Origin: a virus
Length of the DNA: 21,904 bases
Virus record (IMG/VR): IMGVR_UViG_3300037674_000253
Span: 1-21,904 of that record
Direction: 5' to 3' (one strand)
Part shown: positions 11,372-21,904 of the stretch, piece by piece
How the letters are laid out: every line of letters starts with the position of its first letter
Numbering within the stretch: the first letter of the stretch is position 1
Position numbers and translations under genes: made by a program
Notes under the pieces: generated by a model
Databases searched by the model: none
What the model saw: the letters and a program-made list of their open reading frames with translations, nothing else
What the model was told of the DNA's origin: nothing

Positions 11372-11634
11372 CGTAAATTCTCCGTTCGATAGTTATGGAT
11401 AATCGATATCATTTGATCCAGCTTATCATCGATGGACGCAAACATTTCTTTATTATCCTGTTGAATGGTAACGATCTGTTGCTGTATATGCTTCTGCTCT
11501 GCCTGCATCACCGCAATGTCTTGCCTTATATCTGTAACATACATTAAGGCCCCAAATATTAAAGCCCCTGTCGTCAGTAGGTGGCTAATGCTTACCGATC
11601 TACTTAGGTGCCATTTATCTTCTCTAATGCTCAT
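11368..11634 (-). CDS. Small membrane protein with coiled coil (88 aa)
   Basis: One membrane segment is visible at about residues 15-33 (SISHLLTTGALIFGALMYV), followed by a heptad-like, Gln-rich region from about residue 36 to 82 (MQAEQKHIQQQIVTIQQD). A short N-terminal cytoplasmic part, one membrane helix and a long coiled coil is the plan of inner-membrane spanins (Rz-like), and small proteins of this form are common in phage lysis cassettes. No outer-membrane lipoprotein partner is seen nested in it, so the spanin reading is uncertain. GGAG lies four bases before the ATG. The end overlaps the next gene by four bases. Confidence 0.7.
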   Translation of the reverse strand: MSIREDKWHLSRSVSISHLLTTGALIFGALMYVTDIRQDIAVMQAEQKHIQQQIVTIQQDNKEMFASIDDKLDQMISIIHNYRTENLR

Positions 11635-12049
11635 AATTCTCCATTGGTGTTAGCATGAATTCTCTCTCGTAGTATTTTCTTATATCGGGGACCACACCGG
11701 TAAACGGTAACGGCAAACCCATCTTCTCTATAATACCTTTGTACTCATCTTCGCTGTCTTTGTATATTACGAAGTGAGGGTCGTTGTTATAAAGTAGGTC
11801 AGGGTCATTAATAAGCTCGTTAAAGTCTTCTTTAAAATCCTCTGATATCCACTGTGCATAGCACAATGCAACTACATATGACTTAGCAGGATACATCCAG
11901 CCAGTATCTTCTTTGGGTTTTTTAATGTAATCAACACAATCCCCAACTATCGTGTCGTACCTATATTGAATATCCTTATCTGAAAGATCATCTCCGAAAT
12001 CATCATTCATTCTGTGATACATCTCTTGTCTAATTTTCCAGTCCTTCAT
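11624..12049 (-). CDS. Hypothetical protein (141 aa) at the end of the radical SAM cluster
   Basis: An acidic, aromatic-rich protein without signal peptide or membrane segment (WKIRQEMYHRMNDDFGDDL at the N-terminus). It has two cysteines, too few for an Fe-S cluster on its own. No family is recognised. The start lies two bases after the last radical SAM gene, with GGAA upstream, and its 3' end overlaps the first small membrane protein gene by 11 bases. It could belong functionally to the modification cassette or be a small virion or lysis-region protein. Confidence 0.75.
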   Translation of the reverse strand: MKDWKIRQEMYHRMNDDFGDDLSDKDIQYRYDTIVGDCVDYIKKPKEDTGWMYPAKSYVVALCYAQWISEDFKEDFNELINDPDLLYNNDPHFVIYKDSEDEYKGIIEKMGLPLPFTGVVPDIRKYYEREFMLTPMENYEH

Positions 12050-12051
12050 AT

Positions 12052-12957
12052 TTATTCCATATGTTCTTTGTCGTAATAATCCAGCAACCCTATGTATCCA
12101 TTACAAGAGTTATCTAGATTCTCTACATATCTATAGTGCTCTGTCAGACAAGTTCCAAGATACTTACAACTATTGCATATATCAGAAAGCTCAGCCTTTT
12201 CACGCTCACACCATTCGAGGTATTCTTTAAAGTTATCAAGTTCTAAGAATAGCTCTTTGTCATCCTTGTCAAAATCTAATACACCAAACTTGCCATTAGG
12301 CGTGATGTATATATGGTCATCAGAGAATGCGTTGTACTCCTTCTTTAACGACTTTTCAATACTTCTTTTGTTGCCAAAGGTAAAGCCTTTTGGAACATCA
12401 CATTCAAGCCACTTTATCACAAAGTCTTCATAATCCTTATGAGTTACATTGAAGGAGTTGGCTTGATTTATAGAGTATGGTTTAATCTCTACGCTGTCCA
12501 AGTTACGCAATATGTTGAACTGAGAAACCATTGAATCAACATCCATCTTAATAACGTCTTCTGTAGCTAATAGCAATACAGAATACCTTTTAGGAGACAT
12601 TAGCATATTAGAGAATACTTGTGCATGTCTCTCTCTTCCGGTAAAGTCATACGACACCGAAAGGGATATATCATCAGCAAAGAAGTTATCACTAAGCATG
12701 GAGAAGTTAGTTATGATGTTTATCTCACCCTTATAGTGCTTCCTTATAGTCTTTTTTAGTTTTTTAAAATATGTTGAACTTAGTGCTCCTATTTCACCAC
12801 CATAAAGGTCTATATAGTCTATCTTGGGGACTTGCTTTAATAGGCTGTCCAAAACCCTTAAGTCTATCCTCTTTTGGTCGTTAAGTTGTTCAGGTGTTAA
12901 GTAGCAAAACTTACAACTGAAGTTGCAGAAGTATGAGGGGTTGATTGAGATATTCAT
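12052..12957 (-). CDS. Radical SAM protein 7 (SPASM/twitch-like, short)
   Basis: A 301-residue enzyme with C11-NFS-C15-KF-C18 (INPSYFCNFSCKFCYLTPEQ) and G53-G-E55 (IDYIDLYGGEIGAL). The C-terminus has a single auxiliary set, C261-X2-C264-X5-C270-X14-C285, preceded by a typical strand (HIYITPNGKFGVLDFD) in which the cysteine usual for full SPASM domains is absent. It is therefore nearer to twitch than to full SPASM proteins. The start overlaps the JmjC/cupin-type gene by four bases (ATGA). It is the last radical SAM gene of the cluster. Function by family: radical chemistry on a peptide or protein; exact reaction unknown. Confidence 0.9.
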   Translation of the reverse strand: MNISINPSYFCNFSCKFCYLTPEQLNDQKRIDLRVLDSLLKQVPKIDYIDLYGGEIGALSSTYFKKLKKTIRKHYKGEINIITNFSMLSDNFFADDISLSVSYDFTGRERHAQVFSNMLMSPKRYSVLLLATEDVIKMDVDSMVSQFNILRNLDSVEIKPYSINQANSFNVTHKDYEDFVIKWLECDVPKGFTFGNKRSIEKSLKKEYNAFSDDHIYITPNGKFGVLDFDKDDKELFLELDNFKEYLEWCEREKAELSDICNSCKYLGTCLTEHYRYVENLDNSCNGYIGLLDYYDKEHME

Positions 12958-13337
12958 ACTTCAATACTTAGTGTTATTGAGTCATACCTATTAACACCTC
13001 TATGAGGGCTACCTGCGGACACATATAAAGAAGATGTTTCATTAATCTCTACAGTCTCTCCGTACACCTCAAAAAACTTTGTACCTTCTATGCTAGCTAT
13101 TACTAGGTTCACATCGTCAGTGTGTGTATCGAATGAAGCGCTTCCAGCTGGAGAGATAAAAGCATGTACAGACTTTCCCCACTTATGAACTGACTCTAAC
13201 CCCTCTACCTTAACAACAAAAAACCCTTCACAGACCTTAATAACAGCCTCAGCTTTTGTTAACTCAAAATCTCTTCCATCATTATCGATGTAAAAGAACC
13301 TATTGCCAGCACTCAGTAACTTAACTTTTTTATTCAT
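12954..13337 (-). CDS. Minimal JmjC/cupin-type protein, putative Fe(II)/2-oxoglutarate oxygenase
   Basis: A 127-residue protein whose C-terminal half reads like the core of cupin_4/JmjC oxygenases: an H-x-D pair at H72-T-D74 (SFDTHTDDVNLV), a following 'EGTKFFEV' strand with K87 where family members often hold 2-oxoglutarate, and the distal histidine at H112 in YVSAGSPHRGVN, followed by SITLSIEV. In that family the HxD...H triad binds Fe(II), and members hydroxylate proteins such as ribosomal subunits. This protein is much shorter than the cellular enzymes (usually above 350 residues), so it may be a bare catalytic barrel or a non-enzymatic cupin. It is joined to radical SAM genes on both sides by four-base ATGA overlaps, which makes a shared substrate plausible. 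Confidence 0.75.
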   Translation of the reverse strand: MNKKVKLLSAGNRFFYIDNDGRDFELTKAEAVIKVCEGFFVVKVEGLESVHKWGKSVHAFISPAGSASFDTHTDDVNLVIASIEGTKFFEVYGETVEINETSSLYVSAGSPHRGVNRYDSITLSIEV

Positions 13338-14296
13338 CTTATTTCCATGCTAAGAAGCCTACCTTCAAGTTGCTTCATTTCAAAACAATGTCTACCTTGC
13401 ATATCAAACCTCTTATGGTCTTTTATAGTCTTAGAGCAGCCGTTGCACAGATTGAACAATGGGCAAGTAAAACACCAGTTGTTCATCGATAACAACTCAG
13501 GGTCGTCTCTAAAGTTGTCACCTATAGGATACTCTTTGTCATCGGCAAAAGATCCGCAAGTGTATTGGTCGGCTTCTGGTTGTATGCATCTGATACCTTC
13601 GTCACACTTTCTATTTCTTGGACAGGTTGTATCTTCTCCAGCCATAGACTTTATTATGTCTTTTGTGTTGTACTCCCACTCCTCTAGACCTTGGTCATAT
13701 ATATCTAAATATATACTATATATATCAGCAAGTAATAGTGGTTTACCTTGTGAGCCGGAGGCCATGGCATAATTGAGCTTACACTCTACACCCATCTTTT
13801 TTGCTAACTTAACATTGTCAATAGCTATGTCTTGCTCACCATCAACCACAACAGCGATAAAATCTGGTCTATAACCTATTCTATCTAACATTGAGTCTGA
13901 AACGCCCCAGAAGTCCTCTTCTGTGAACATAGAGTAGTCACCCTTGAGTCTGCCACCTCCGTATTGGAAAGATGTCGTTACGGCCATTCTAGGGTGTTTG
14001 AACAACTCATCCCACTTTTTAGTCTTATAAAAAGGCCATAGATTGGTTGTAAACGATATAGATGTGTCCATGTCGTGTTCGTCAAGATAGTCTATTATCT
14101 GATAGTAATATTCGGGCTTGACCATCAAAGGGTCTCCACCATTTACTATAACGGTTCTTGTGTCTGGGTGCTCGTCAAGAAACTTAAATATCTCGTTGAT
14201 ATCTAGTAACTTGGCACTATCTTCCGATATGTTTGAGCTACTACAGAAGGTGCACTTGAAGTTGCACAGCTCTGTCGGTTTTATTATTAAGTCCAT
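13334..14296 (-). CDS. Radical SAM/SPASM protein 6
   Basis: A 320-residue enzyme with C11-NFK-C15-TF-C18 (MDLIIKPTELCNFKCTFCSS) and a GGD variant of the SAM motif, G53-G-D55 (VIVNGGDPLM). The C-terminus is cysteine rich: C225, C231, C237, C247, then C275-X2-C278-X5-C284-X2-C287 and C304. The last pair is CX2C where the standard SPASM pattern has CX3C. The ATG has GAGG seven bases upstream inside the preceding gene, and the core motif at residue 11 rules out a later start, so 56 bases are truly read in two frames. The gene ends in ATGA overlap with the JmjC/cupin-type gene, arguing for coupled synthesis. Confidence 0.92.
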   Translation of the reverse strand: MDLIIKPTELCNFKCTFCSSSNISEDSAKLLDINEIFKFLDEHPDTRTVIVNGGDPLMVKPEYYYQIIDYLDEHDMDTSISFTTNLWPFYKTKKWDELFKHPRMAVTTSFQYGGGRLKGDYSMFTEEDFWGVSDSMLDRIGYRPDFIAVVVDGEQDIAIDNVKLAKKMGVECKLNYAMASGSQGKPLLLADIYSIYLDIYDQGLEEWEYNTKDIIKSMAGEDTTCPRNRKCDEGIRCIQPEADQYTCGSFADDKEYPIGDNFRDDPELLSMNNWCFTCPLFNLCNGCSKTIKDHKRFDMQGRHCFEMKQLEGRLLSMEIR

Positions 14297-15257
14297 ACAT
14301 TAACCTCTTAGGCGCGGGACATTGTGTGTCCCAATCTAGTTTGTAACAATCACCACCGCACTGTCCGAAAACTTCGCACGGTATGCATCTCGGGTCTATA
14401 AGAGCCTCTGTGGCTATCATACAGCCTCTTTTCTCATGGTTCAGTATACTGTCTATGTCATCACCTATGTGGGCATAATGACTAGTGGGTGCGCTATTAG
14501 GGCAACCGGCTATTGTCCCGTCTGCATTAATCGTAAACATTATCTTTTCACAGCCTCTGCAAAAGGTGGAGTTCCTGTTGCCGCCGCCCTCAAACTTAGC
14601 GTAAATCGATTCGAGAAGTACGTTATTAAAGTAACCCCTGTCATTAACCTGATGCATCTCCCATATCCAATCATCTATTTGGCGATTAGTTGGGAATATG
14701 TGGGGGTTTCTTTCAGCAGACCCATCGTGTGTGAGCCTCTCAAAAGCAACCTCTCTTAAACCTAACTCTTTAAACAAGGCTAAAACACCAGTGGGGCTTC
14801 GCTTTATAAGTTGCGTATTCATTGACACAAACAACTTTATATCAACACCCAAAGCAACTAGTAAGCGCACGTTATGTTTCCATAGGTCGTACTGCCTAAC
14901 ATTTGCCCATCGAATTCCCTCGTCCCAAGATGTTGCTATTCTACTTGATAATTCATTTTGTATGAATGACAACTTCTCTGGCGTGAGCTTGTGTGTGAGG
15001 TTAGTAGTAGCTCCAAAAGATGCTTTTTTATTCTTTTCAGACACAAGCTTGTAAAATGTACGCATATCCTCTAAGGGCGCTAAGAACGGCTCTCCACCAT
15101 GGTAGTCTATGTGTATCTGCTCATCTGCAAAGTTATTTACAAAGCTAGCAGTGGCAACAGGATCAAAGTATATCTTCCTCCCGTTTATACCACTAGTAAA
15201 ACAGTGGGAGCAGTTAAGGTTGCACGTCTCTGTCGTCTTTATGTAAAATATTTTCAT
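14241..15257 (-). CDS. Radical SAM/SPASM protein 5
   Basis: A 338-residue enzyme with C12-NLN-C16-SH-C19 almost at the N-terminus (MKIFYIKTTETCNLNCSHCF) and G54-G-E56 (IHIDYHGGEPFLAPL). The SPASM region is complete: C233, C236, C252, C279, then C291-X2-C294-X5-C300-X3-C304 and C313. The stretch KIMFTINADGTIAGCPN around C252 is the hallmark 'G.i..Cp' strand of SPASM proteins. Of the seven enzymes this looks most like a standard peptide maturase. The cysteine motif lies only 12 residues in, so the start at 15257 is firm and the 44-base overlap with the preceding gene is real. Its own 3' end overlaps the next gene by 56 bases. Confidence 0.93.
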   Translation of the reverse strand: MKIFYIKTTETCNLNCSHCFTSGINGRKIYFDPVATASFVNNFADEQIHIDYHGGEPFLAPLEDMRTFYKLVSEKNKKASFGATTNLTHKLTPEKLSFIQNELSSRIATSWDEGIRWANVRQYDLWKHNVRLLVALGVDIKLFVSMNTQLIKRSPTGVLALFKELGLREVAFERLTHDGSAERNPHIFPTNRQIDDWIWEMHQVNDRGYFNNVLLESIYAKFEGGGNRNSTFCRGCEKIMFTINADGTIAGCPNSAPTSHYAHIGDDIDSILNHEKRGCMIATEALIDPRCIPCEVFGQCGGDCYKLDWDTQCPAPKRLMYGLNNKTDRAVQLQVHLL

Positions 15258-16284
15258 TTGACTCCATGTAGTTGAACCACATTCTCATAACACAGTCAGG
15301 AAGATCTCTTATTCTGTTCTTCCAATCCCATTGAGTGTAACACCTAAACCCACACTTATTATACCATTTACAAGACAGGCAACCGTACTCGTCCATATAG
15401 TTCTGCATCATGGAGGTGTTGTCTTTTCTGTCTAAAGGAGTGTTAAAGTCAGACTCATCATACCTATCCCATCTACAATTAGATGTAGTATTGTCAGGAA
15501 AGATAGTGACTTTGTTTAGCGCCATGCAATGCATTTCATTGTTGTCGTTTCTTATTAGTCCAGAGAATGGAGCGATGTCTGGATAATTCTTATAAACAAA
15601 CTTTAAAAACCTAAGGTATAGCGAGTCAGATGGTATCTGGTGGTCCTCACCTTTATCTGGTATGTAGTCATCAAAGTAGAAGTTATCGAACTTTTCATAC
15701 AGGTACTCAAAGTAACTGTCTCCAGTCAAAGACATAGCCATAAACTTATGTATTGACTCTGTAGTGGCCACCATGTTTATAGAGATGATGTAGTCGGCAA
15801 AGTAATCTATATTCTTTGCATATGGGCCTTTAACAGGCCTTCCATCAAAGTCATAAGAAGCTATCAAGTAAGACGGAATTCCTTTTGCGACCATGTTATC
15901 AAGCATTGTCTTAACTAGTTCTCTTTTGGAGAATTGAAACGATGTAACCCATACAACCTTTATATCATAGTCGTGCTTTTTATAAACAACCATTATCTCG
16001 TCCATCAGCCTTTCATAGACTTCATAAAGGTGCGAGTGCCTATCTTGAAGCAACTCTCCACCAACCATGTTTATCTGAACAATATCAACAGAATCCCTAA
16101 GCTTTACAAGATGCTCCTCAACAAGAGATACCTTTGACAGTATCTCCTTCTCGGTTAAGCCGACTGTTGACTTTTTATCATGATGGCAAAAAGAACAATT
16201 AAGATGACAGTTTTCAAATAGTGTAAGCTCTATTTCTCCAATGAGGGGTCTTTTGTTTTCTAGTAATATTCTAGTATTGTTCAT
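15214..16284 (-). CDS. Radical SAM/SPASM protein 4
   Basis: A 356-residue enzyme with the classical radical SAM core: C26-HLN-C30-SF-C33 (IELTLFENCHLNCSFCHHDK) and G75-G-E77 (INMVGGELLQ). The C-terminus shows a full SPASM pattern of seven cysteines: C253, C270, then C302-X2-C305-X5-C311-X3-C315 and C331, able to hold two auxiliary [4Fe-4S] clusters. In known families this pattern belongs to peptide maturases (sactionine, ranthipeptide, PqqE, mycofactocin types) and anaerobic sulfatase-maturing enzymes. The upstream gap of 27 bases is the largest in the window and carries GAGG about ten bases before the ATG. The 3' end overlaps the next gene by 44 bases. Confidence 0.92.
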   Translation of the reverse strand: MNNTRILLENKRPLIGEIELTLFENCHLNCSFCHHDKKSTVGLTEKEILSKVSLVEEHLVKLRDSVDIVQINMVGGELLQDRHSHLYEVYERLMDEIMVVYKKHDYDIKVVWVTSFQFSKRELVKTMLDNMVAKGIPSYLIASYDFDGRPVKGPYAKNIDYFADYIISINMVATTESIHKFMAMSLTGDSYFEYLYEKFDNFYFDDYIPDKGEDHQIPSDSLYLRFLKFVYKNYPDIAPFSGLIRNDNNEMHCMALNKVTIFPDNTTSNCRWDRYDESDFNTPLDRKDNTSMMQNYMDEYGCLSCKWYNKCGFRCYTQWDWKNRIRDLPDCVMRMWFNYMESNENILHKDDRDVQP

Positions 16285-16311: not shown

Positions 16312-17508
16312 TTATACTACGTCTAACTCGTCCGTCATATACTTCAAGGCGTCTTCATTCCATAAATGACCACCCCTCTCTGAAGGGTTATACCTTGCCA
16401 ACACGTCGCTTGGCACTATCTCTTCATCTAAAGACAAGTCCATAGCCTTTATAGCTTCCCATAGCAACCTATTAGCCATAGAGATTAAATATGGAGAGTC
16501 TTTATACAACGGATGAATTGACAGGTTTTTAATTCCGTCAAGGATAAGACTGTTGCGTCTATCAAGAATTTCTTCAAAACTAAGGCCGGTTACATTTGTA
16601 CCTTCATTTGTTAAGAAGAACGCTTGCTCATGCAACATCACATTCAGGTGTGTCTCTGGCCCATCTTTACCCATAACAACTGTTAGCCCAATAAAGTTCA
16701 TTGAGTTACAGTTAAGGTTAGCCATAGACATTGTTGCCTTGTCATAATTATCATCATCGATAACCCTTGACAGGAAACTATTCCAAGCTAGTAGGTTTTC
16801 TTTCTGCTTGTGTCTTGGTGCTCTTGAGAATGCCGGGTTCATCTCCAAGATGGTTCCGTAATCGTTTAGAGACTTGTCAAGCATTTTGTTGTATTGTTCT
16901 TTTGATGTCTTTTTACCCACCAGTGCTGAAGACTGTAATGTCCATGACCAGTCTATCATTTTTGGCGTATTGTGCTTAAAGAAGTCAATCCTACGCATAA
17001 CAGCGTCAAAGTACTCTTCATTATTAAGCATTGTCTCAGGATTCTCAACAGGCATGATAAACTCCATAATCATGTCTTCCCTATAGTTCTCAGGGTTATC
17101 AAGAATCTTAAATATCTCTTTGAATTTCACATCATTAACAAAGTCAAACTTAGCTGGTGTTGCGATTCTAGCATTCTCATGCTCTCGCATAATCTTTTGT
17201 GTAATACTGTTGTTTAGAACATCTATAGTGTTTGATGCTGTAAAGAAATCTGTAGGACCCAATACGAACTCTCTTAGGTTTAAACCAGAGGCCTTTACGC
17301 CATCGGCAAGCCTTTGAGCTTCCTCCAGCAATGGTTGTGCCAAGCTTTTTGGCTTGTGCTTATCCACAAAACAACCTGTACACCCGTGGTCACATCCTGA
17401 GAGCAACTCTACACTTATCAGAACATCAAACTTAACTTGGTCTTTTAGTGCTAATGATTCTGGTCCCGAATATCTCATAGCCTTGCAATAAGATTCCTGC
17501 ATACTCAT
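16312..17508 (-). CDS. Radical SAM protein 3 (GPTD type, auxiliary cysteines lost)
   Basis: A 398-residue radical SAM enzyme with C39-DHG-C43-TG-C46 (VELLSGCDHGCTGCFVDKHK) and G84-P-T-D87 (FVLGPTDFFTAS). It belongs with the two preceding genes by these motifs and by general layout, but its C-terminal third lacks the CX2CX5CX16C set. The equivalent stretch, around IKNLSIHPLYKDSPYLI, contains no cysteine. It should therefore carry only the SAM-binding cluster. Two explanations are plausible: it is a divergent catalytic member that no longer needs an auxiliary cluster, or it is a non-catalytic or partner subunit for its two paralogues. The start ATG has GGAG seven bases upstream and lies three bases after the previous stop; a second ATG two codons later is possible. 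Confidence 0.88.
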   Translation of the reverse strand: MSMQESYCKAMRYSGPESLALKDQVKFDVLISVELLSGCDHGCTGCFVDKHKPKSLAQPLLEEAQRLADGVKASGLNLREFVLGPTDFFTASNTIDVLNNSITQKIMREHENARIATPAKFDFVNDVKFKEIFKILDNPENYREDMIMEFIMPVENPETMLNNEEYFDAVMRRIDFFKHNTPKMIDWSWTLQSSALVGKKTSKEQYNKMLDKSLNDYGTILEMNPAFSRAPRHKQKENLLAWNSFLSRVIDDDNYDKATMSMANLNCNSMNFIGLTVVMGKDGPETHLNVMLHEQAFFLTNEGTNVTGLSFEEILDRRNSLILDGIKNLSIHPLYKDSPYLISMANRLLWEAIKAMDLSLDEEIVPSDVLARYNPSERGGHLWNEDALKYMTDELDVV

Positions 17509-17511
17509 ATA

Positions 17512-18672
17512 TTATCTCCTACTCTCATATATCTCTTTCAACCTATCAAGGTCTTTTATATTATCTTCATGGACCAAGAATTTCTTCCTATATCCTGCCT
17601 TATCCGACTCTACACTGTAATCAGACCAATCGTACATACTATTTGCAGCATGGCTTAATGCATACTTGTTTTTTATCATATTCTCTTTTGGACAAATGCA
17701 ACTCTCGGTCTCTAAGAACTTCATCAGCATTGGAATGCCTCTTGAAGCGCAAGATGTTAAAAAGTCACAATTTGTACACTCAGTCTCGTGAGAGTACTGT
17801 TCTACAACTTTGTTGTGAAAGTCTTGTATACCATTGACTTTAAACATATCGTCGTAAATAGCCATATTCTCGTACAAGAACGGTGATATGTACCAGTCAC
17901 CCCTCTTAAAGTTCAAGACCTTAAAGTTGTTACCAGAGTGTGAATGGTCAATCATTATGTTATTAGTGCCTGAACTAGATGGCAAATTGTTAAAGAAGGA
18001 GTTGACCTGTTCTATCCTGTCGAGTATCTTCTTCTTGTTACCACTTCTCGCAACTGATGGTATTAGATCAAAGGTTGTGTCAAACATGCTTGTGACATGG
18101 TTGTGTATCCTTTGGTAGTCTATCTCACGGTCTTCTATGTTCAGTAAGAATGTATAGGTTATATCGTGTTCAAGATTGTCGCTCAAGATAGACAGTTTGT
18201 ATTTAACATCCTCTATATACCCGATATCCATTAACGTCTCAGGATTTGTTGCTATTCCTATTTCTATCTCTGTATCGGTATTAATGTTCTTTGTAATAAA
18301 GCTACAGAACTTAAGTATATCCCCACCCATAAGCGTTGTTACAAAGGCTAGTATTGGTGAGTTATCATTAATAGTCTTTAAAAGGTCTTTATTAGAAAGA
18401 ATATCATAAAAGTTACTAGATGATAAGAAGTCGGTAGGGCCGATTAGTATCTCATCTACTAATAAACCCTCTTCTGTCATACTCTTAACTCTAGACATAA
18501 ACCCTGCAAGGTCGCTGTCAGACGGGGCGTTGTTTCTTCTGTTTACAAAACAGCCAGAGCAGCTGTGTTCGCACCTATCCAATACATCCATTTGTATCTT
18601 AATCGCAGAGACAGGTTTGGTCTTTGTTTCAGAGGTAAGCTCGTAATACAGGTTATTTTTGATTATTGGCAT
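17512..18672 (-). CDS. Radical SAM protein 2 (GPTD type, one auxiliary Cys set)
   Basis: A 386-residue radical SAM enzyme with C34-EHS-C38-SG-C41 in IKIQMDVLDRCEHSCSGCF, and G78-P-T-D81 at the position of the usual GGE motif (DEILIGPTDFLSSS). The auxiliary set is C299-X2-C302-X5-C308-X16-C325, the same spacing as in the preceding gene, with an extra C327. The segments around it also match (CASRGIPMLMKF here, CSERNVPLYMRS there), so the two arose by duplication. It carries about 55 extra C-terminal residues. The start has GAGGT six bases upstream and overlaps the preceding gene by 20 bases. The SPASM/twitch-like tail favours a peptide or protein substrate by family knowledge. Confidence 0.9.
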   Translation of the reverse strand: MPIIKNNLYYELTSETKTKPVSAIKIQMDVLDRCEHSCSGCFVNRRNNAPSDSDLAGFMSRVKSMTEEGLLVDEILIGPTDFLSSSNFYDILSNKDLLKTINDNSPILAFVTTLMGGDILKFCSFITKNINTDTEIEIGIATNPETLMDIGYIEDVKYKLSILSDNLEHDITYTFLLNIEDREIDYQRIHNHVTSMFDTTFDLIPSVARSGNKKKILDRIEQVNSFFNNLPSSSGTNNIMIDHSHSGNNFKVLNFKRGDWYISPFLYENMAIYDDMFKVNGIQDFHNKVVEQYSHETECTNCDFLTSCASRGIPMLMKFLETESCICPKENMIKNKYALSHAANSMYDWSDYSVESDKAGYRKKFLVHEDNIKDLDRLKEIYESRR

Positions 18673-19642
18673 ACATATACCTCTTTGGGATTATACAAGT
18701 CTCAATACCACGAGACCTCATGTACAACGGAACGTTCCTTTCAGAACAAGATATTATCCATTGGCAATCTCCGCACTCAGTGTCACCAGTCAGTACTATA
18801 TTACTAGCTACATTACATGAGTTAAGGTCGTCAACTTCAAACAAGTTATCTCTCTGAAGAACCCCGTCGAATATAAACGGGCTTATAAAGAACTTGTTGT
18901 TATAGAACGAGTAGTTAGTACAACCATAAGAGTTAAACTTAGAATCAAACATTGTGTACCACCCTAGAAACTCTGGGGCTATCTCCTGACCTTCTAAGTC
19001 CTTTCTAAAGTTTACAAGCATCTCCGAGACCTTTCCAGTGTTATTGTTATTCACAAAGAAGTTAGGAACAACAACAATTGGTGAGTTGTATCTGTCATGT
19101 ATCTGATAGGCCAAATCATTATAAGATATCTTATCGAACATACCCTTATGATAGTTAACCCTGAACTGTACAGAACCCTCTTTAAATAGTCCTAGCTTTT
19201 TATCGTCTAACCCATTTAAAAGGTAGCTATTTATATCCACAACAATCTTAAAGTCTATGTCAGGCTCTTCAGATACATCCCACAACCTCTTGTGCTTCTC
19301 TTTGATAAGGTTGTAGTCCTGCTTTAACGCGGATGTAAATGAGATACCTGATATGTCATACAGCTTTTGAAGGTAACGGTCCTCTAAGACCTCTTCAAAG
19401 TTTATAGCATCAAATATATCTGTCGGACCTATTGTTATCTCATCAGGGTAGAACGCAGACTCAAGCAACTTGTTATATAGTATCTCAAGATTGAATGAGC
19501 CGTTCTTCCTTGGTATGAAGCAACCATTACAGTTGGCGTTACAGCCACTTAATATATCAGCATGAACCTCTGACTTTAGGAAAGACTGCTCTCTGTCAAC
19601 ACCACCAAAACCAGAAGCGCCATTGTTAAGCTGTGACTTCAT
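18653..19642 (-). CDS. Radical SAM protein 1 (GPTD type, one auxiliary Cys set)
   Basis: A 329-residue radical SAM enzyme. The [4Fe-4S]-binding CX3CX2C motif is C34-NAN-C38-NG-C41, inside EVHADILSGCNANCNGCF. Where classical members have the GGE SAM-binding motif after the second strand, this protein has G72-P-T-D75. The C-terminus holds a second set C290-X2-C293-X5-C299-X16-C316, as expected for a twitch- or SPASM-like auxiliary cluster, which in known families marks enzymes acting on peptides or proteins. Only one Met precedes the cysteines, so the start at 19642 is forced. It has a weak ribosome binding site and overlaps the upstream gene by 17 bases, so coupling is likely. It is a paralogue of the next gene: identical N-terminal Cys positions and identical auxiliary spacing. 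The substrate is unknown; the nearby Cys-His protein is the best candidate. Confidence 0.88.
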   Translation of the reverse strand: MKSQLNNGASGFGGVDREQSFLKSEVHADILSGCNANCNGCFIPRKNGSFNLEILYNKLLESAFYPDEITIGPTDIFDAINFEEVLEDRYLQKLYDISGISFTSALKQDYNLIKEKHKRLWDVSEEPDIDFKIVVDINSYLLNGLDDKKLGLFKEGSVQFRVNYHKGMFDKISYNDLAYQIHDRYNSPIVVVPNFFVNNNNTGKVSEMLVNFRKDLEGQEIAPEFLGWYTMFDSKFNSYGCTNYSFYNNKFFISPFIFDGVLQRDNLFEVDDLNSCNVASNIVLTGDTECGDCQWIISCSERNVPLYMRSRGIETCIIPKRYMYANNQK

Positions 19643-20324
19643 CTTCAGTTATTAACTCTTCTGGAAAGAGGCTTAACACAAAGTTCACTACACCGTTCTT
19701 ATATAGCATGTGGAAGAGGTCTCCGCCATGATACTTAGATGCCTTGTTAAACAAACTGGTATTGATGCTCTTGTTTAATCCTTTCTCTGATATAACAAGA
19801 GCTAGAGAGTCTAATCCATCAGAAGTGATACTTAAGATGTTAAGGCCAGTAGCACTCTTGTTGTGCTCGGAGAACGTCATATTGTCATTTATACAAATAC
19901 CAGAGTCTTCATTGTTATTTATTGTATCAACAATATAAGAGGATATTCCAGACATATCATCGATTAGATCATCGATAACATCAATATTATCAACTAAGTA
20001 CTCCTCAATATCCTTTGCAGTAAACATAATAAGGCCATCAACAATCTCGTGCTTTAGTCTAAACCTTACAATATTACTAACAGTTCTGGTTAGCATATGG
20101 GATGATACTATAAAGTCTAGCTTAATAAACTCTGTCACAAGATCGTTATCAATCTTATTAAAGGCCGCAGTAAATCCTGTGTTCGACAGATAAATTAATA
20201 TCTGCTTAGCTGTCAAAGACTCTCTTGATTTAACATAATCAACAAAAAGAACAAATGAATCGTCCTCTAGTTTCTTTTTGTATATCTCAGTAAGATCTAT
20301 TGGATTTAATGGTAATGTGTACAT
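19626..20324 (-). CDS. Hypothetical acidic protein (232 aa) of the radical SAM operon
   Basis: Start ATG is preceded by AAGGA six bases upstream and lies nine bases after the 349-residue gene. The product is acidic and rich in Asn, Ile, Asp and Ser, with no signal peptide, no long membrane segment and a single cysteine (in GICINDN). A mid region (AKDIEEYLVDNIDVIDDLID) looks helical and strongly acidic. The C-terminus (FHMLYKNGVVNFVLSLFPEE) is hydrophobic. I see no known domain. The last 17 bases overlap the start of the first radical SAM gene in another frame, implying translational coupling. Like its upstream neighbour it could be a structural partner, a substrate-presenting protein, or a virion component. 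The sequence does not decide between these. Confidence 0.75.
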   Translation of the reverse strand: MYTLPLNPIDLTEIYKKKLEDDSFVLFVDYVKSRESLTAKQILIYLSNTGFTAAFNKIDNDLVTEFIKLDFIVSSHMLTRTVSNIVRFRLKHEIVDGLIMFTAKDIEEYLVDNIDVIDDLIDDMSGISSYIVDTINNNEDSGICINDNMTFSEHNKSATGLNILSITSDGLDSLALVISEKGLNKSINTSLFNKASKYHGGDLFHMLYKNGVVNFVLSLFPEELITEDEVTA

Positions 20325-20333
20325 TATGATTCC

Positions 20334-21383
20334 TTATATTAGTGGCTCTACCGTCCAAAATATATACGGTATACGCTTCATGCGTCTGTGAAAGAACTCT
20401 ACATCCGTCTTATCGATTGAATCAACACTCGTACCCTCTAAGAAATTGACCAAGATAGGTAATGAATGCTGAAGGTCGAAATAGATGTCGTAATACTCCC
20501 AGCTCTGATGATTCTTTAACTTATCTACTAGTCCGTCAACAGTTCCAACATATGCTATAAAGTCTCTAAGTGTATATAAGACCAGCGTATTGTTCTCTTG
20601 ATACCAAATGCTTTGAATGAAGGATTCTCTAGTGTATGTCGTGTCACCTTGTGCAACCAAGTAATCAACAATTCCAACAAGCGGAGAGATAATACTTGAG
20701 CGTGAGATTGTGGACTGAATAGCCTCTCCCACTAATTTTGAAGAATGGATTGCGTACTTCTCAGCTAAGATGCCGGCAGATACTGTGTTCCCCGACATAT
20801 GGTCTTGCATGTAAAACAACACGTCATATGACCAAAACTTACCGGGTGCAATCGTTCCAGAAGACTCGTATCTATCTTCATCAGCAAACATAGTCTCAAC
20901 TGTTGAGCCTACTAAAGCTACTGTTAGAGCCGTATTTGTCGCAAACTCTATATCTCTTTGCATAACACGAGTAGAAAGGTCGGTTAGCACATCGCTTGTA
21001 TAGTCGGCAACTCCACTTAACAGCCAGTCAGAATACTTTAGATAAACACGAAGCATGTCCGTTTCATCTGTAAACAGCATAAACACCTTGTCAGGGTTAT
21101 TAAGATAGTCAAGATTATCAGCTTCTGCGTAGCTCTTAAATGAGACAATCTCGCTTATTCCAGCATCATCAATAATAGGATTGTACTTCTTTACTGTATC
21201 GTGCACTGTGTTTTTAAAACTACCTTCAAAAATAGTGTCATCACCATGTCCAACAATCACTACTTTTCTTTGTGATGATGAGTTTGAGTAAAAAGACGCC
21301 ACTTCTTCCATTAGGCCGTCAAGACCAAGTATGGATGATACATATTTTTTATTGTTTAAATAATAACAACTTTGTTCTATCAT
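20334..21383 (-). CDS. Hypothetical protein (349 aa) of the radical SAM operon
   Basis: The frame is open from 21434, but the likely start is the ATG at 21383, whose A is the last base of the preceding stop (TAATG) and which has a strong GGGGGAG ribosome binding site six bases upstream. This gives 349 residues beginning MIEQSCYYLNNKKYVSSILG; the upstream Met would read back through the Cys-His tail codons in another frame. The protein has alternating hydrophobic strands and helices (KVVIVGHGDDTIFEG near the N-terminus, then VFMLFTDETDMLRVYL), no signal peptide and no clear membrane segment. It has a single cysteine near the start, so it is unlikely to hold an Fe-S cluster. I do not recognise the family. 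Its place between the Cys-His protein and the enzymes suggests a partner, scaffold, or a virion protein of the same system. Confidence 0.75.
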   Translation of the reverse strand: MIEQSCYYLNNKKYVSSILGLDGLMEEVASFYSNSSSQRKVVIVGHGDDTIFEGSFKNTVHDTVKKYNPIIDDAGISEIVSFKSYAEADNLDYLNNPDKVFMLFTDETDMLRVYLKYSDWLLSGVADYTSDVLTDLSTRVMQRDIEFATNTALTVALVGSTVETMFADEDRYESSGTIAPGKFWSYDVLFYMQDHMSGNTVSAGILAEKYAIHSSKLVGEAIQSTISRSSIISPLVGIVDYLVAQGDTTYTRESFIQSIWYQENNTLVLYTLRDFIAYVGTVDGLVDKLKNHQSWEYYDIYFDLQHSLPILVNFLEGTSVDSIDKTDVEFFHRRMKRIPYIFWTVEPLI

Positions 21384-21763
21384 TACCTTCTCCCCCTTGA
21401 GGTGTGACAATTTGTATGACAACTGCTGTGGCACACCTGTGCGTTCCAGCTTACATTACCTATAGCCCCCTCTATCTCATCCACAGCAGAGCGCACAGTA
21501 TTAACTATAGATGCTGCAACATCGTCAGCGTCTGCAATCAAACCAGAACCAATTCCACTATCTAGGTCGCCAGTAAAAACAGAAGAGGCTGCGGAGGTTA
21601 AATTCCAGTTTGGACTAGTTGCAGAAGTAGATGTCCCACTATCGGCACCGGTACCCTGTGTCCATACGGTAGCTGTAATCGTTATTGTTTTGTTAAATGT
21701 TCTTAATTGGTCTCTAGCGTTATCTTTTAACCATGTGTCTAGTTGGCTGGCTGTCATGCTCAT
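21383..21763 (-). CDS. Cys-His repeat protein, candidate substrate of the radical SAM cluster
   Basis: A 126-residue protein of no family I recognise. Residues 1-30 look like a short folded or helical segment (TASQLDTWLKDNARDQL). Residues 35-75 are rich in Gly, Ser, Thr and Asp and look like a flexible linker. Residues 76-101 are a probable amphipathic helix (ADADDVAASIVNTVRSAVDE). The C-terminus carries three Cys-His pairs exactly four residues apart (C111-H112, C115-H116, C119-H120), followed by TSRGRR. The only cysteines are these three. Start ATG has GGAG six bases upstream; an in-frame ATG two codons later is less well placed. The stop overlaps the next start as TAATG. A long N-terminal part plus a short terminal Cys-rich repeat is the usual plan of radical SAM-modified RiPP precursors, and seven such enzymes lie downstream. 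Alternatives: a metal-binding tail, or an unmodified small head protein. Confidence 0.85.
   Translation of the reverse strand: MSMTASQLDTWLKDNARDQLRTFNKTITITATVWTQGTGADSGTSTSATSPNWNLTSAASSVFTGDLDSGIGSGLIADADDVAASIVNTVRSAVDEIEGAIGNVSWNAQVCHSSCHTNCHTSRGRR
21386..21433 (-). other. C-terminal CHxx repeat tail (three Cys-His pairs plus RGRR)
   Basis: These 16 codons encode CHSSCHTNCHTSRGRR. The three CH pairs use different codons (TGC CAC, TGT CAT, TGT CAC), so the periodicity is kept at protein level and is not a fresh DNA duplication. Spacing of four puts the Cys and His residues on one face of a helix. The Arg-Gly-Arg-Arg codons (AGG GGG AGA AGG) also form the purine-rich ribosome binding site of the following gene, so the basic end may partly reflect that constraint. 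Proposed role, inferred: the site modified by the downstream radical SAM enzymes. Confidence 0.7.
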
Positions 21764-21772
21764 ACCGTACTC

Positions 21773-21904
21773 CTAAATTTTAACTTCAACTGTACCATTA
21801 CCGTCTGCTAAAGCCACTCCTATAAATCTATCTCTTCTATCTAAAGAGTGCAGTTCTTTTACAGCTCTTCCTTTCCCATCTTGATGTGCAATGATATAAT
21901 CACC
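21773..21904 (-). CDS. Head/decoration-like protein, C-terminal 43 residues (5' end outside window)
   Basis: This is an open frame running in from the right edge and ending in TAG, ten bases before the next start codon. The visible residues begin GDYIIAHQDGKGRAV and end IGVALADGNGTVEVKI. A C-terminus of the form 'GVAL.DG..GTVEV.I' is typical of small phage head-decoration or DUF2190-like capsid accessory proteins, in which a beta-rich domain ends with a statement-like strand pair. The match rests on general resemblance over a short stretch, so the family is tentative; that it is the end of a real gene is well supported by reading frame, codon use and the tight spacing to the downstream gene. 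If correct, it places the left end of the head-morphogenesis module directly upstream of the unusual Cys-His protein and the radical SAM cluster. Confidence 0.6.
   Translation of the reverse strand, partial: GDYIIAHQDGKGRAVKELHSLDRRDRFIGVALADGNGTVEVKI

Follow-up and report, generated by a model that had tools for sequence, protein, structure and literature searches.

Radical-SAM/SPASM peptide maturases (PapB, the anaerobic sulfatase maturase and enzymes of the CteB/SCIFF type) combine a radical-SAM core with a neighbouring cysteine-rich peptide; the His-Xaa-Ser system (HxsA-D) combines a C-terminal repeat containing His-x-Ser with more than one radical-SAM enzyme; and the CXXX-repeat peptide system (TIGR04115) places a cysteine at every fourth residue of the presumed core. 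These traits recur in a gene cassette encoded on the minus strand of a viral DNA of 21,904 nt (IMGVR_UViG_3300037674_000253; the window, i.e. the whole stretch analysed), with a difference from each system: the presumed substrate has a folded body and bears its motif at the C-terminus, its repeat is Cys-His-x-Ser and ends in Arg-x-Arg-Arg, and its protein body and fibre context differ from those of the CXXX-repeat system. The best NCBIfam match of the 338-aa radical-SAM protein of the cassette is the PapB ranthipeptide maturase (NF047865; E 3e-16; 59.5 of 340 bits, below cut-off); the CXXX-repeat maturase (TIGR04115) reaches 33.1 of 350 bits, HxsB 24.4 of 370 bits and HxsC 33.5 of 267.9 bits, all weak and below the curated cut-offs, and HxsA gives no match. 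Because all of these scores fall far below the curated cut-offs, the cassette is assigned to no named system, and its likeness to the His-Xaa-Ser and CXXX-repeat systems is one of sequence pattern only. The closest solved structures to the radical-SAM enzyme are a radical SAM domain protein (5wgg) and a sulfatase maturase (4k36).

The cassette, read from its fibre end, consists of genes for proteins of 126, 349 and 232 aa, seven genes whose products all contain CxxxCxxC, with a cupin gene between the last two, and a gene for a 141-aa protein. The C-terminal end of a collagen-like fibre gene (21773..21904) stops at TAG; nine bases, GAGTACGGT, separate it from the ATG of the presumed substrate, a 126-aa protein with a folded body and a flexible tail (21383..21763), the stop codon of which overlaps the start of the ORF for the 349-aa protein (20334..21383) as TAATG. 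The 232-aa protein (19626..20324) belongs to a 'VDY..YLSN' family that is usually encoded right after the substrate. The nine-base spacing and the positions of these three genes had been proposed in the initial annotation and are confirmed in the sequence. The next genes encode a 329-aa radical-SAM-like protein with the motif CNANCNGC (18653..19642) and one with CEHSCSGC (17512..18672), both of the phrog_31457 family; a further radical-SAM-like protein with CDHGCTGC (16312..17508; by comparison with PHROGs); a radical-SAM protein with CHLNCSFC (15214..16284; by family libraries); the 338-aa radical-SAM/SPASM protein (phrog_1802; 14241..15257), which is the most conserved enzyme and elsewhere is usually encoded directly before the substrate; a radical-SAM protein with CNFKCTFC (13334..14296; by family libraries); the cupin (JmjC_2/Cupin_2 in Pfam; 12954..13337); and a 301-aa radical-SAM protein with CNFSCKFC (12052..12957) that matches radical-SAM models in NCBIfam and PHROGs. 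The 141-aa protein (phrog_20737; 11624..12049) closes the cassette on its far side. Six of the radical-SAM proteins were scanned with PF04055, which scores over its cut-off for one (36.5 vs 29.5 bits), below threshold for four and not at all for the 329-aa protein. Beyond the 141-aa gene, on the minus strand like every other gene of the window, lie small ORFs, some of them possibly membrane proteins; then come genes for a phrog_3287 virion protein, a tail fibre of 1022 aa, a tail-fibre assembly protein and an endolysin.

The presumed modification site is the 16-residue C-terminal motif CHSSCHTNCHTSRGRR (21386..21433) of the 126-aa protein, hereafter the tail protein; the only match in family libraries is phrog_35144, at the tail. 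Across 170 distinct proteins, many of them found by the tail pattern itself, the consensus is (CHxS)3-R-G-R-R: the three Cys, three His and three Arg never vary, each CHx is followed in nearly every case by Ser or Asn, and the x of CHxS varies freely. The bodies of the homologues vary and the tail is fixed; cysteine occurs almost only in the tail and is absent from the body in 121 of the 170 proteins. With the tail removed, the body contains 3.7% K+E and 38% T+S+N+G, compared with 6.7% and 39% in fibres, 7.4% and 38% in baseplate proteins, and 12-16% and 16-24% in the cassette enzymes and partner families. This composition is virion-like, resembling that of fibres and baseplate and unlike that of the enzymes or the partners. 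The predicted structure has a pLDDT of 77 (50-67 in the tail), and comparison with the PDB (Foldseek, VIA-align) gave no significant match, which does not show that the fold is new. Neither a Sec-type signal peptide nor a double-glycine site or other leader-cleavage motif was seen in the protein. Many phages encode tandem, diverged pairs of tail proteins, often overlapping by one base and directly following a large fibre gene (L111, L119, L120, L129, L139, L144, L148, L151, L153, L158, L161, L162 and others).

The gene upstream of the tail protein was initially described as a decoration-like head gene. A publicly available 37,252-bp contig (L008/L121/L243), 100% identical to the window over the compared part, extends further upstream and encodes in order a terminase, a portal, a major head protein, a head-tail structural protein and several fibre genes that match PF11133 (head fibre) and PF01391 (collagen), then three 2OG-Fe-oxygenase-type genes, a 297-aa collagen-like fibre and the cassette. 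Because this contig completes the partial gene of the window as the collagen-like fibre (L121:4977-5870; PF01391 and tail-fibre PHROGs), the neighbour is a fibre gene rather than a head decoration gene. The broader claim, that the cassette lies among phage genes, holds, with head and fibre genes upstream and the tail fibre and endolysin on the other side. The three oxygenase-type genes (L121:3072-4964) lie between fibre genes, and one of them matches PHROGs labelled ferrochelatase; the collagen-like fibre is possibly their target.

A profile of the 338-aa radical-SAM protein retrieves 362 relatives from IMG/VR, of which the best 80 were fetched with up to 10 kb on either side. The tail is present in 66 of these 80 records (59 in the fetched stretch and seven elsewhere in the record), among them every one of the 52 records with a length of 25 kb or more; the 14 records that have no tail are all fragments shorter than 25 kb. 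A CxxxCxxC protein directly precedes 51 of 59 tail genes, and the association of the tail motif with radical-SAM genes is more than chance. A DNA pattern for the tail finds at least 120 stretches, and because many of the 170 distinct tail proteins came from the pattern itself, the enzyme-led sample is the unbiased one. Four of the 19 matches of the pattern in genome collections (in Frankia, Pseudoalteromonas, Bordetella and one further bacterium) fall outside a tail ORF and were taken as chance or truncated.

The cassette occurs in podovirus-like phages of about 40 kb and in T4-like, phiKZ-like and Atu_ph07-like phages. Six annotated isolates carry it: Burkholderia phages FLC6, FLC8 and SURPRISE13, Pseudomonas phage pPa_SNUABM_DT01, Agrobacterium phage Atu_ph07 and Sinorhizobium phage Phosso. 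It is also found in a record of 222,888 bp, which we take to be Ralstonia phage RSF1. In the usual arrangement, fibre or baseplate genes are followed by those for the cupin, the phrog_1802 radical-SAM protein, the tail protein, the 232-aa family, a 372-aa family, further radical-SAM proteins and oxygenases, and the 141-aa protein; the window shows a variant in which the tail protein comes first. No immunity-like gene recurs among the neighbours of the cassette, and no peptidase gene was seen among the recurring ones. The published FLC6 and S13 papers list these enzymes without a role, the latter as accessory or unknown genes. In one phage (PP856017.1, gp77-78; L002:15001-16178), two dihydrofolate-reductase-type genes lie within the cassette between radical-SAM genes; their published assignment is nucleotide synthesis, and they may serve modification.

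In four phage types the tail gene lies beside genes for fibres or the baseplate, so that the protein combines a structural-type composition with a place among structural genes. In a T4-like phage, three bases separate the end of a gene for a 3810-aa fibre from two tandem tail-protein genes, and in phiKZ-like phages phrog_2163 virion/tail proteins are encoded upstream. A C-terminal domain is common to 115 fibre proteins at cassette loci and lies within eight genes upstream of the tail gene in 61 of 98 testable loci, a count that covers cassette loci and does not imply that the domain is cassette-specific. This domain (about 120 residues; phrog_22593/19602, with a weak PF11962 match) is carried by fibres of very different lengths (that of the contig above and 114 others).

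As in RiPP loci, the gene of the presumed precursor adjoins genes of dedicated modifying enzymes. A difference from the radical-SAM/SPASM maturase loci is that searches of six cassette-bearing phages for ABC transporter ATPases (over cut-off), the membrane domain of ABC exporters and peptidases of the C39 family found none. The initial annotation had noted the lack of a protease or exporter at the locus, and neither an exporter nor a peptidase gene was found within the window; an exporter and peptidase elsewhere in the genome had been named there as evidence that would tell against a virion product, and in the six phages neither an ABC exporter nor a C39 peptidase appeared.

The homologue of the tail protein in Atu_ph07 is gp170. 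According to the report on Atu_ph07 virions analysed by ESI-MS/MS (PMC6102473), most virion proteins fall in clusters, one of which comprises CDS 170-215; gp170 lies within this cluster, and the numbering agrees through gp215, the major capsid protein. All three clusters given there are exactly 46 genes long, and therefore the cluster edge at 170 may be the edge of such a 46-gene span rather than a detected protein; the boundary was accordingly dropped as proof that gp170 was detected. Nor does a place among genes for virion proteins by itself prove that the product is in the particle.

A search of particles for the 349- and 232-residue proteins had been suggested as well; virion membership of these two is not supported. 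The 232-aa family and the family that is usually second after the substrate are enzyme-like in composition, and the 232-aa homologue in Atu_ph07, gp169, is outside the cluster of virion proteins. Neither protein is identified by family libraries, and the 232-aa protein, predicted by AF2 with a pLDDT of 92, has no significant match in the PDB (Foldseek, VIA-align), which does not show that its fold is new. To judge from composition and gene position, both are probably cytosolic helpers.

The tail pattern is also present outside phages: each of six Bdellovibrionota genomes of 2.5-4.2 Mb has a single copy, and it was found in five of 191 genomes drawn from this phylum. The copies (L238-L241, L226) lie among chromosomal-type genes and have kept the cassette. 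In five of the six genomes, a gene for S74, the chaperone domain of phage tail fibres, is located 2.8-16.4 kb from the cassette, with only one to four S74 genes per genome; a rough estimate puts the chance of such proximity at an order of magnitude of 1e-7, for a radius that was set once the data had been seen. The nearby S74 genes are short (frames of 333-443 aa), and two of the S74 proteins, one of them below the Pfam cut-off, begin with a prepilin-like segment. Bdellovibrio recognizes its prey with S74-bearing mosaic adhesive trimer (MAT) fibres (PMC10769870); these share S74 with the proteins encoded near the cassette, whereas radical SAM is unmentioned in the main text of that report. The presence of S74 genes near the chromosomal copies indicates that the cassette keeps company with adhesin genes of the tail-fibre type and not with virions as such; in Bdellovibrionota there is no virion. 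In a Bacteriovorax genome, two ABC-transporter genes lie directly beyond the 141-aa-type gene of the cassette (L239:2190-5583), and for this reason export is conceivable in Bdellovibrionota. The initial claim that the 126-aa product stays in the cell and joins the particle is thus supported in part, by the fibre context, the lack of an exporter or C39 peptidase in six phages, the lack of a secretion signal, the virion-like composition and the position of gp170 in a virion cluster. The cassette is not exclusively viral.

From sequence and gene context we infer the tail as substrate, the place of the protein in the particle, its role in attachment and the chemistry performed. The cassette is probably a radical-SAM/2OG-oxygenase system acting on the C-terminal tail of a surface (virion) protein that is associated with fibres and would be built into the particle without export. 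The flexible tail of about 16 residues, (Cys-His-x-Ser)3-Arg-Gly-Arg-Arg, would be modified in the cytoplasm by several radical-SAM enzymes, assisted in many phages by cupin and 2OG-Fe oxygenases, with the 232- and 349-aa families as putative cytosolic partners; the CHxS repeats would be cross-linked or otherwise altered. With no removal of a leader and no export, the modified protein would join the particle as part of, or beside, the receptor-binding fibres, where a rigid, cross-linked or metal-binding tail could aid attachment or stabilize the fibre tip. Because its gene adjoins those of attachment fibres, the tail protein probably contributes a chemically hardened component to the machinery of attachment. 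Seven radical-SAM enzymes are a lot for one short tail, and some of them may act on other proteins.

Since known radical-SAM clusters mostly yield RiPPs, the product might instead be a RiPP acting in or on the cell (a takeover factor, an anti-competitor peptide or a signal) that is cut from the C-terminus and freed at lysis; it would need no exporter because release is by lysis. The nearby lysis genes and the one chromosomal copy with adjacent ABC transporters agree with such a role, which nevertheless appears unlikely: in place of a short leader there is a large, folded body that varies and is virion-like in composition; neither a GG site nor another leader-cleavage motif was seen, and no immunity-like gene recurs; and in all phage types examined the gene is situated among those for fibres or virion proteins. 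Alternatively, the tail might be left unmodified and form the Cys/His metal-binding tip of a virion protein, with the radical-SAM enzymes serving another target in the vicinity, for instance the fibre or DNA. Phage spikes with metal-bearing tips are known, Cys-His triplets could bind Zn or Fe, and seven radical-SAM enzymes exceed the need of one tail. The presence of the tail in all 52 of the enzyme-bearing records of at least 25 kb (among the best 80 of 362) argues against this separation of tail and enzymes, as do the radical-SAM gene that is usually its neighbour and the peptide-maturing function of the nearest relatives of the enzyme, and we consider it distinctly improbable.

An invariant C-terminal tail accompanied by several radical-SAM enzymes, a cupin and 2OG oxygenases, together with the reductases of the dihydrofolate-reductase type within cassettes of Burkholderia phages, also brings to mind a carrier protein from which a small cofactor-like molecule, once assembled on it, is cleaved, as for pearlins or PQQ. 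The free variation of the x in CHxS, the virion-like body and the lack of a peptidase gene among the recurring neighbours make this very improbable. We prefer modification of a fibre-associated protein that is retained and assembled into the particle.

Searches of a library of papers found none that connects radical-SAM chemistry with virion proteins, and we know of no virion protein matured in this way. Tentatively, the cassette could represent an undescribed class of maturation, common to unrelated phage groups and predatory bacteria, in which radical-SAM enzymes, with oxygenases, harden the tips of receptor-recognition fibres. If so, hundreds of environmental phages, as well as Atu_ph07, FLC6 and SURPRISE13, would possess a line of peptide chemistry devoted to their particles and linked to the attachment fibres, and its counterpart near the tail-fibre-type adhesin genes of predatory bacteria would mean that a single surface chemistry links two kinds of bacterial hunter.
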